This document shows, piece after piece, positions 120 to 1,247 of a stretch of 42,070 nt of DNA (position 1 is its first letter; each line of letters begins with the position of its first letter). Below the pieces are notes generated by a model that made no database searches, was not told the DNA's origin, and was given only the letters and a program-made list of their open reading frames with translations. The DNA comes from Desulfosporosinus sp. FKB. GTDB taxonomy: Bacteria; Bacillota; Desulfitobacteriia; Desulfitobacteriales; Desulfitobacteriaceae. Position numbers and translations under genes: made by a program. Location of the stretch: assembly GCF_002196705.1 (NCBI RefSeq), contig NZ_NADJ01000006.1, positions 1-42,070 of the forward strand, written 5' to 3'.

Positions 120-129
120 TAAAACAAGC

Positions 130-156
130 GATAGACTGCCATATTGGCAGTCTATC
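130..156 (+). terminator. Hairpin after the 5S gene, repeated at 514-540 and 898-924
   Basis: GATAGACTGCC and GGCAGTCTATC form an 11-bp perfect stem with an ATATT loop, followed by a weak T-rich stretch (TGTGTTTC). It follows each 5S or 5S-like segment at the same distance, so it is either the rrn terminator or a processing stem. The third copy (898-924) carries two changes, both of which leave G-U pairs, so the fold is kept. Confidence 0.6.
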
Positions 157-210
157 TGTGTTTCATGAAAGTAAAGGTTAAGTTAAAGTAAATATAATAA
201 GTGTTTAGGG

Positions 211-503
211 AAGAAGTCCGGGGCTCCACCCGTTCGGATCCACATTGCTGGAGAATGTGTCACAAGTCGCAATGTGGCGAAAAGCTCGTACTTCGCCATG
301 AAGTGATTCTCTGGGGTTGGTGGCTCGGCGAAACCCTCCACCGGAGGCTTTCGTGCTTTTCGTATATCGAACACGGAAGTTAAGGATCCACACTGCAGGA
401 GTCTGCGTATCGGGACGCAGTGTGGCGAAAGGCTCATCCGCCTTTCGTTCCAGGGCCAAGGATACTTGGGGCATTGCCCCTGGGAAAGTAGGTCATCGCC
501 AGG
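211..503 (+). pseudogene. 5S-like rRNA with two large inserts, copy 1
   Basis: The 5S blocks CCACCCGTTC (226-235), ATATCGAACACGG onward (364-384) and CCAGGGCC to the 3' end (450-503) occur in the right order. They are separated by an insert of about 128 nt in loop C (236-363) and one of about 65 nt at the loop B/helix II side (385-449). Both inserts begin GGATCCACA and contain a 9-bp stem (CCACATTGC/GCAATGTGG at 240-248/269-277; CCACACTGC/GCAGTGTGG at 388-396/417-425) followed by a CGAAA-type hairpin. The 5' strand of helix I is absent, which argues for a pseudogene. The 3' half is intact, and a CCGAG to CCAAG change keeps its helix paired. Expanded 5S rRNAs are known in some Clostridia, so an expressed RNA is possible. 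Confidence 0.6.
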
Positions 504-594
504 TAAAACAAGCGATAGACTGCCATATTGGCAGTCTATCTGTGTTTCATGAAAGTAAAGGTTAAGTTAAAGTAAATATAATAAGTGTTTAGGG

Positions 595-887
595 AAGAAG
601 TCCGGGGCTCCACCCGTTCGGATCCACATTGCTGGAGAATGTGTCACAAGTCGCAATGTGGCGAAAAGCTCGTACTTCGCCATGAAGTGATTCTCTGGGG
701 TTGGTGGCTCGGCGAAACCCTCCACCGGAGGCTTTCGTGCTTTTCGTATATCGAACACGGAAGTTAAGGATCCACACTGCAGGAGTCTGCGTATCGGGAC
801 GCAGTGTGGCGAAAGGCTCATCCGCCTTTCGTTCCAGGGCCAAGGATACTTGGGGCATTGCCCCTGGGAAAGTAGGTCATCGCCAGG
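595..887 (+). pseudogene. 5S-like rRNA with two large inserts, copy 2
   Basis: This repeats copy 1 exactly, 384 bp further on, with inserts at about 620-747 and 769-833. The insert positions correspond to the loop C tip and the helix II/loop B boundary of 5S rRNA, places where extra hairpins could be carried without touching helices IV and V. As in copy 1, no partner for the 3' helix I strand ATCGCCAG is found upstream. Confidence 0.6.
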
Positions 888-941
888 TAAAACAAGCGAT
901 AGACTGTCATATTGGCAGTCTGTCTGTGTTTCATGAAAGAT

Positions 942-1247
942 ATGATTCCCACGAAACGATTGGTTGCTCGTCTAGGTATTTCCGCCTATGACGTTAAAGC
1001 CCCTCTCAGTGAACAAGAGGTTTGGGCGAGTGAAGTAAAACTGTTTTTTTCACAACGCCTTGGAGCTCCTGCTCAAGCGGTTGTGAAAGCCGGAGATAAC
1101 GTCGTCAAAGGGGATCTTATTGCTGTAATTCCTGAAGGTGCAGGCCTGGGCGCTAATTTGCGCGCCAGTATTTTGGGACAGGTCAGCAGGGTTGATCAGC
1201 TTGTGCTGCCGACACCTCACAGTGCTTTACAAAAATCAATTTTATAG
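942..1247 (+). pseudogene. C-terminal fragment of an RnfC/PduS-type SLBB protein
   Basis: The translation from MIPTKRLVARLG onward, through YDVKAPL, RLGAPAQAVVKAGDNVVKGD and IPEGAGLGANLRASILGQV, reads as the barrel-sandwich-hybrid (RnfC_N-like) domain. In PduS-type electron-transfer proteins this domain lies at the C-terminus. The flavin/NADH-binding and 4Fe-4S portions that should precede it are missing. The homology starts within a few bases of the point where the third 5S repeat unit diverges (about 938), so the repeat array seems to have replaced the 5' part of the gene. ATGs at 933 and 942 remain open, so a stand-alone 100-residue domain protein cannot be excluded. Confidence 0.6.

Follow-up and report, generated by a model that had tools for sequence, protein, structure and literature searches.

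5S rRNA gene remnants behind a Desulfosporosinus rRNA operon carry copies of a dispersed double-hairpin element

5S-like sequences located behind rRNA operons and their terminators, with a terminal part missing and with large inserts, have been described previously (Stepanov and Fox, 2021; PMC7812874). That survey named such remnants in Desulfosporosinus orientis, D. youngiae, Desulfitobacterium, and others, and judged them to be likely untranscribed and possible or likely pseudogenes. In its main text, the strings "repeat" and "transpos" are absent. In the parts considered here, intergenic relatives are mentioned solely for the thermoanaerobacterial type, and the inserts are not linked to a dispersed repeat, a link that is made in the present analysis.

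The DNA analyzed here, referred to as the window, is a stretch of 42,070 nucleotides from Desulfosporosinus sp. FKB and corresponds to contig C37 of a 5.12-Mb genome in 40 contigs. It starts at a 5S rRNA gene, the 23S gene of the same operon being located off the contig, and the end of an rRNA operon was recognized as the setting of the remnants from complete operons in relatives. The normal 5S gene was the sole match above the gathering score when the window was searched with Rfam, and it is followed by two tandem units with the following features (the elements alpha and beta and the covariance model R1 are described below).

5–120, + strand: normal 5S rRNA gene (RF00001, 89.5 bits)
121–504, + strand: tandem unit 1, 384 bp (384 of 384 bases identical to 505–888)
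505–888, + strand: tandem unit 2, 384 bp (384 of 384 bases identical to 121–504)
130–156, + strand: terminator-like hairpin 3′ of the normal 5S gene, with copies at 514–540 and 898–924 (pattern scan; fold)
About 216–235, + strand: 5S remnant, 5′ side, without the 5′ strand of helix I; unit 2 copy at 600–619 (by-eye comparison with 5–120)
236–363, + strand: insert 1 in 5S loop C, 128 nt, alpha (236–289 and 355–363) with nested beta; unit 2 copy at 620–747 (R1 match at 239–297; fold)
290–354, + strand: beta module nested in alpha at the apex of stem B, replacing CC; unit 2 copy at 674–738 (empty and filled stem B in the same genome)
364–384, + strand: 5S remnant, middle; unit 2 copy at 748–768
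385–448, + strand: insert 2 on the 5S loop B side, un-nested alpha, 64 nt; unit 2 copy at 769–832 (R1 match at 387–449; DNA fold, z −5.0)
449–504, + strand: 5S remnant, 3′ part; unit 2 copy at 833–888 (by-eye comparison with the normal gene)

The original prediction of two identical 384-bp units behind a normal 5S gene was borne out, and the uninterrupted identity between the units extends further, to 78–522 versus 462–906. Also in agreement with that prediction, the 5S sequence of each unit is interrupted at loop C (128 nt) and on the helix II/loop B side (64 nt), and the 5S remnants of both units lack the 5′ strand of helix I. The units are 5S rRNA gene remnants ending an rRNA operon. They correspond to the published remnant type in that they lie behind a normal 5S gene with a terminator first, lack a terminal part, and contain large inserts. 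The suggestion that they are pseudogenes is the best reading. Likely-pseudogene remnants of the same kind have been published (PMC7812874).

A terminator-like hairpin stands at the head of each 384-bp unit, and the fold of its region (121–175) gave a z of −5.4. A pattern scan of positions 1–1350 detected six terminator-like sites on both strands, compared with a shuffle mean of 1.3, and no promoter-like site on the + strand. It could be argued that the units are expanded functional 5S genes or expressed 5S-like RNAs with a new role. In their 3′ part, only two differences from the normal gene were counted by eye over the stretch of 449–504 compared, and certain expanded 5S rRNAs of other prokaryotes are genuine (PMC7812874). 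However, the missing helix I strand, the hairpin before each unit, and the scan without a promoter-like + strand site argue against function, and inserts differ in number and arrangement between operons and between species. Normal 5S genes also exist in these genomes, and conversion can explain the 3′ identity. A functional role of the units was therefore considered very unlikely on these grounds. Directly after the array, window positions 912–1247 contain a short reading frame that resembles, by eye, the C-terminal part of an RnfC/PduS-like protein with its start missing.

The exactness of the two-unit tandem was weighed against an assembly artefact at the end of a short-read contig. The contig begins at 5S, the units are perfectly identical, and four other contigs of the same genome have single-N joins with doubled overlaps. 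However, the array in the window is free of N, diverged tandem units are present in contig C19, and multiple consecutive alpha copies follow 5S in genomes assembled as one contig. The array is real in kind, and only the copy number in the window is at issue; an artefactual tandem is unlikely, though it deserves some weight. The single-N joins were located near 5S arrays at L063 (C12), L065 (C23), L066 (C31), and L068 (C6), and a doubling of this kind appears to account for the second "5S gene" of C31, which scored 53 bits.

Both inserts carry one double-hairpin element of approximately 63 nt, designated alpha, with the plan ATCC, stem A, stem B (GGCGA...TCG), and CGT. R1 is a covariance model constructed from 12 alpha copies of the same genome. 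It is 63 nt long and comprises a stem A of 9 bp with the conserved loop AGGAG..TGCGT, a stem B of 8 bp (GGCGA..TCG) with the loop TCRTCC, and the CGT end. Insert 2 matched R1 at 387–449 with 87.9 bits (E value, 4.7e-22), this stretch being one of the 12 seeds, and insert 1 matched at 239–297, outside the seeds, with 55.3 bits (E value, 2.7e-13); unit 2 gave the same values. When the nested 65 nt were removed from insert 1 and the apex CC was restored, 50 identities over 65/64 nt were found with insert 2. The alignment score was 34, compared with a maximum of 2 in 1000 shuffles. The earlier proposal that one module had entered the same gene twice was supported.

The 9-bp stem and subsequent GGCGAA(A) hairpin noticed earlier in both inserts were recovered by folding and by the covariance-model matches. 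A shared GGATCC start had also been proposed. ATCC is common to both inserts, whereas in the second GGATCC the initial G belongs to the host, as the final base of AAG. Similarly, the idea of one module per insert held for insert 2, but insert 1 consists of the 63-nt element plus a 65-nt module (290–354) in its second hairpin. The seeds of R1 (n = 12) were 94.6% paired, with both-side changes in 5 of 17 pairs. In an alignment of 75 matches (54 distinct), 96.8% of cells were paired and both-side changes occurred in 6 of 17 pairs, compared with 26–51% paired in slid controls; this alignment was fitted to R1 and leans towards it, and two of its matches are weak and lie on the reverse strand of others. 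Beta alone gave a less convincing DNA fold (z −1.3). Each insert is a copy of a double-hairpin element that is dispersed and conserved in structure; this identity, and the nesting of insert 1, go beyond the original prediction.

In insert 1, the 65-nt beta is located exactly at the CC position of the un-nested stem-B apex. Both forms are present in the same genome (C10 and C19 without beta, C37 and C24 with beta), and beta in stem B of alpha was seen in many arrays. Two D. lacus contigs (L172 and L199) contain a beta-type module inside beta. The inner and outer modules are homologous, because they align with a local score of 37, compared with no more than 15 in 1000 shuffles. At L206, from another genus, stem B of alpha holds a different insert whose ends are of the same kind.

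To describe the distribution of alpha, R1 was searched against 80 relatives with an E value cut-off of 0.001, and 30 of them had matches. Alpha was present in 25 of the 29 genomes of the genus, the source genome included, and absent at this cut-off from G009, G012, G022, and G024. Five of 16 genomes from other genera of the family were positive, one of them weakly (E value, 6.6e-4), compared with none of 35 genomes outside the family. An even draw of the phylum gave matches in 5 of 398 genomes (E value, 1e-5; few candidates scored per genome), all from the same family. The source genome contains seven dispersed copies, and two further partial matches there cover just the surrounding repeat. 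In G008, 69 R1 matches were obtained at the 0.001 cut-off, 54 dispersed and 15 behind 5S, the latter all in 5S sense, and 33 of the 38 stronger dispersed copies lay outside reading frames of at least 90 codons as predicted by a simple ORF caller. G013 had 53 matches, with eight identical cores in differing surroundings, which points to recent spread.

A 339-nt unit used as a query was matched by all 28 relatives of the same genus and by 38 of 60 genomes in total, the source genome included; this query includes 5S pieces, and the weakest of its matches may be plain 5S. The loop C junction pattern was detected in 40 stretches of genome contigs, namely 32 of Desulfosporosinus, two of "Bacillota bin54", and six others (Lachnospiraceae, Propionibacteriaceae, three Afipia, and Halalkalicoccus). 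The six were taken as chance, approximately two chance matches being expected by our own estimate and the three Afipia being close relatives. One exact pattern had no match in viral contigs, nor did one dispersed copy in a blastn search of plasmids and phages, and phage or plasmid carriage was set aside given these results.

Dispersed alpha copies were located inside outer hairpins that vary per copy, such as GGCC..GGCC, GTGCC..GGCGC, and GACC..GGTC. One outer hairpin also exists empty, with the apex GCCATCCATGGC or close variants. The empty hairpin (GACACTYGnCCATCCATGGnCnGCG, one mismatch allowed) was found at 44 sites in six of eight genomes, compared with 0 for the backward control. With alpha sought at the same place of the outer hairpin, 25 sites were filled and six were not, one of the latter being a cut-off alpha, and the empty sites could in part be deletions. 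The target rule draws its support from the insertion sites, because TCC/GGA was not shown to be commoner at hairpin apices in general (6/16, 9/41, and 2/9, compared with 5/19 control loci). The dispersed loci, including L124–L148, are intergenic mosaics of further hairpins (TGCGAAGACAGTGTCTTCG, CGATAGTCTCCAGTGGAGACTATCG, and CTCGAACATCCTTGTTCGAG) around alpha copies.

Conserved loops and covariation would also be consistent with a conserved cis-regulatory RNA of a riboswitch-like kind that had strayed into 5S remnants as well. However, only 5S reached the threshold when the window and seven loci of the same genome were searched with Rfam, and the apices of different hairpins are filled by copies. 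In addition, for 28 of 37 cases in G008 the closest gene downstream lay on the other strand (simple ORF caller). A riboswitch reading was set aside because of gene orientation, and a cis-regulatory RNA is most improbable. One match to a miRNA family (E value, 0.24), far under the Rfam threshold, was taken as chance.

Within the source genome, all nine contigs holding 5S have at least one alpha copy behind it. Of the 37 R1 matches in 15 operon stretches from seven genomes, 30 followed the normal 5S of Desulfosporosinus operons, five lay at the 5S end of G067 or beyond it, two were weak and lay upstream of an operon, and none was within 16S or 23S. All 34 5S genes of 84–96 bits in G003, G007, G008, and G015 (one to three contigs each) were 116 nt long and insert-free. 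Large inserts were observed in 16S, 23S, and spacers at L204, L205, and L206 (G067) and at L217 (G031), and R1 had no match in them. An expanded 5S of D. dichloroeliminans has been placed at 2241573–2241816 (PMC7812874). An R1 match of G067 at 2241582–2241644 falls within this interval, and if G067 is that strain, the insert of this expanded 5S would be alpha.

At least four alpha sites were distinguished in 5S remnants, given here with slashes at the junctions.

Loop C: GTTC/CC/ATAT
Loop B side: TTAAG/ACC/TCC
Further 5S site: CCAC/CC/GTTC
Further 5S site: GTAGG/TC/ATCGCC

Inserts at the same positions in relatives, which the original prediction had looked to, were indeed present, the same sites being filled in named Desulfosporosinus records. 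At the right junction, CGT is followed by host sequence; the left junction reads (R)ATCC with 1–4 differing bases and is thus inexact. By eye, a host pyrimidine-C dinucleotide (CC or TC) is replaced and none is duplicated. Exceptions are the Desulfitobacterium copies of the GTAGG/TC/ATCGCC site, in which the replaced bases are neither CC nor TC, and some remnants that join the left junction of one 5S site to the right junction of another.

Intervening sequences, which are removed from the transcript, occur in bacterial rRNA, and they offer another explanation of the inserts, which form strong hairpins. Possible intervening sequences were also raised in the published survey (PMC7812874). However, excision would still leave the 5S without helix I, the element of G008 lies mostly outside rRNA operons (54 of 69), often against neighbouring genes, and 16S and 23S of the 15 operon stretches had no match to it. 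We regard intervening sequences as highly improbable. The earlier suggestion that the inserts are cut from RNA did not hold up against the incomplete helix I, the preceding terminator-like hairpin, the scan without a promoter-like + site, and the occurrence of the element mostly outside 5S; both RNA excision of the inserts and 5S function of the units are unlikely.

The fourth base of stem B was T in 47 of 48 hairpin-hosted copies (C in the other) and A in 108 of 112 5S-hosted copies, counted as distinct pattern matches with short-context rows dropped and with 38 more unassignable to a host (29 A and 9 T). Entries into 5S were probably few and followed by spread within arrays, because 5S-hosted and dispersed copies form two subfamilies. 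The two context-bound subfamilies, together with chimeric modules seen by eye in arrays, would also fit a non-mobile origin, in which a single appearance of the modules in 5S and in the intergenic repeats was followed solely by copying through homologous recombination, conversion, and template switching inside arrays. However, the same element ends are present at several 5S sites and in several host hairpins, and the eight identical cores of G013 have differing surroundings. Moreover, at the one orthologous place compared (C33:371959 of the source genome), G000 and G014 carry the repeat and G008 is without it, with the flanks conserved. These observations make a non-mobile origin improbable, though not negligible.

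The orientation of the dispersed copies was analyzed in G008. Of 54 copies, 47 were in lagging-strand orientation when the arms were split at 2.5 Mb (p = 2e-8) and 46 when the split was at the midpoint (p = 1e-7). These values are from a single genome, with a dnaA-like ORF at 544 of the contig and the terminus taken to lie around the middle. The bias hints at single-stranded DNA. Neighbour genes in G008 were 44 opposite and 21 same (33 of the 38 stronger copies, the five inside open frames omitted), so gene direction and replication direction are inseparable in this genome. For 37 copies in eight other genomes, 34 neighbour genes were same and 28 opposite (22 and 12, respectively, in G013 alone), which speaks against a general orientation rule.

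Matches to Y1 transposase (PF01797) were found in 24 of the 29 genomes. G003 and G027 contain alpha copies and had no Y1 match, and Y1 presence across genomes does not track alpha copies. Seven Y1 loci of five genomes, a minority of those matched, had no flanking copies, six repeat strings leading to two core matches approximately 6 kb off. In both G007 (L325) and G010 (L326), approximately 6 kb separate an alpha copy from a gene for a long Y1-type protein.

Overall, we consider it probable that 5S pseudogenes were colonized by a mobile, non-autonomous element, which inserts at hairpin apices or into loops and at times does so recursively, and that the pseudogenes were then multiplied by recombination. 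Alpha and beta would both be elements of this non-autonomous kind, entering hairpin apices or single-stranded loops with a host CC or TC replaced and no target duplication. Each alpha copy would introduce a stem-B apex resembling a target, which would allow copies to nest. 5S remnants, free of selection for 5S function, would gather insertions at several sites, and unequal recombination and conversion may then multiply the units, as in the window. The least certain step is a putative enzyme acting on hairpin-folded single-stranded DNA or on an RNA copy. More tentatively, and with the balance tilted against it, these repeats may represent a bacterial mobile DNA family targeting hairpin apices, characterized by ATCC...CGT ends, a replaced loop YC, a self-made target, and stacked copies, with 5S containing alpha, alpha containing beta, and beta containing a further beta. 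To move, such a family would need a putative enzyme for folded single-stranded DNA or RNA.

The 5S pseudogene array is of a known kind, and what looks new is the identity of the inserts as a dispersed, nesting double-hairpin element. No description of the alpha repeat in Desulfosporosinus or Desulfitobacterium was found in the titles and abstract openings of the open literature, a scope that mostly excludes subscription journals. For the 5S inserts whose source was left open by the published survey, the present results supply one, namely copies of a scattered repeat. Should the nesting rule be correct, this would be a small mobile DNA that spreads via hairpin loops and generates the target for its next insertion. 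It could then serve as a test case for the movement of short palindromic repeats that encode no transposase and for the origin of new rRNA expansion segments.

Small, non-coding, mosaic, and multicopy repeats are familiar in bacteria as BOX, BIME, and MITE-type sequences, and alpha resembles them in each of these properties. It differs from MITEs in that its ends (ATCC...CGT) are without terminal inverted repeats and, by eye, a dinucleotide is replaced and none is duplicated. REP sequences of the CGTC and GTAG superfamilies are, like alpha, short palindromic intergenic repeats (PMC3733652). By end motif, the CGTC REPs are the nearest, as dispersed alpha ends in CGTC and has stems in the same range of 8–9 bp (stem B, 8; stem A, 9). 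As characterized in the part of PMC3733652 used here, however, CGTC REPs have a loop of 4–5 nt, a stem starting with AT, and a single hairpin flanked by the tag on one side and by a CCA tail on the other. In alpha, the stem-B loop is 6 nt, the stem starts with CG, and CGT(C) follows the hairpin; alpha thus departs from CGTC-tagged REPs in loop, stem start, and tag place. Unlike REPs, it also has two hairpins and inserts inside other hairpins.

The double-hairpin elements of fungal and sponge mitochondria share with alpha the hairpin pairs, the multicopy state, and the location in rRNA genes and intergenic DNA (PMC2800124). For the Allomyces-type elements, flanking duplication is not reported in the portion of PMC2800124 consulted. 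Stems are conserved and loops vary in the sponge elements (PMC2800124), whereas alpha has conserved loops and covarying stems. Alpha further differs from the mitochondrial elements in residing on a bacterial chromosome, nesting in its own apex, and having rRNA gene remnants as hosts. With shared descent not claimed, alpha may by analogy work like a mitochondrial double-hairpin element, which is the nearest described system in behavior (PMC2800124).
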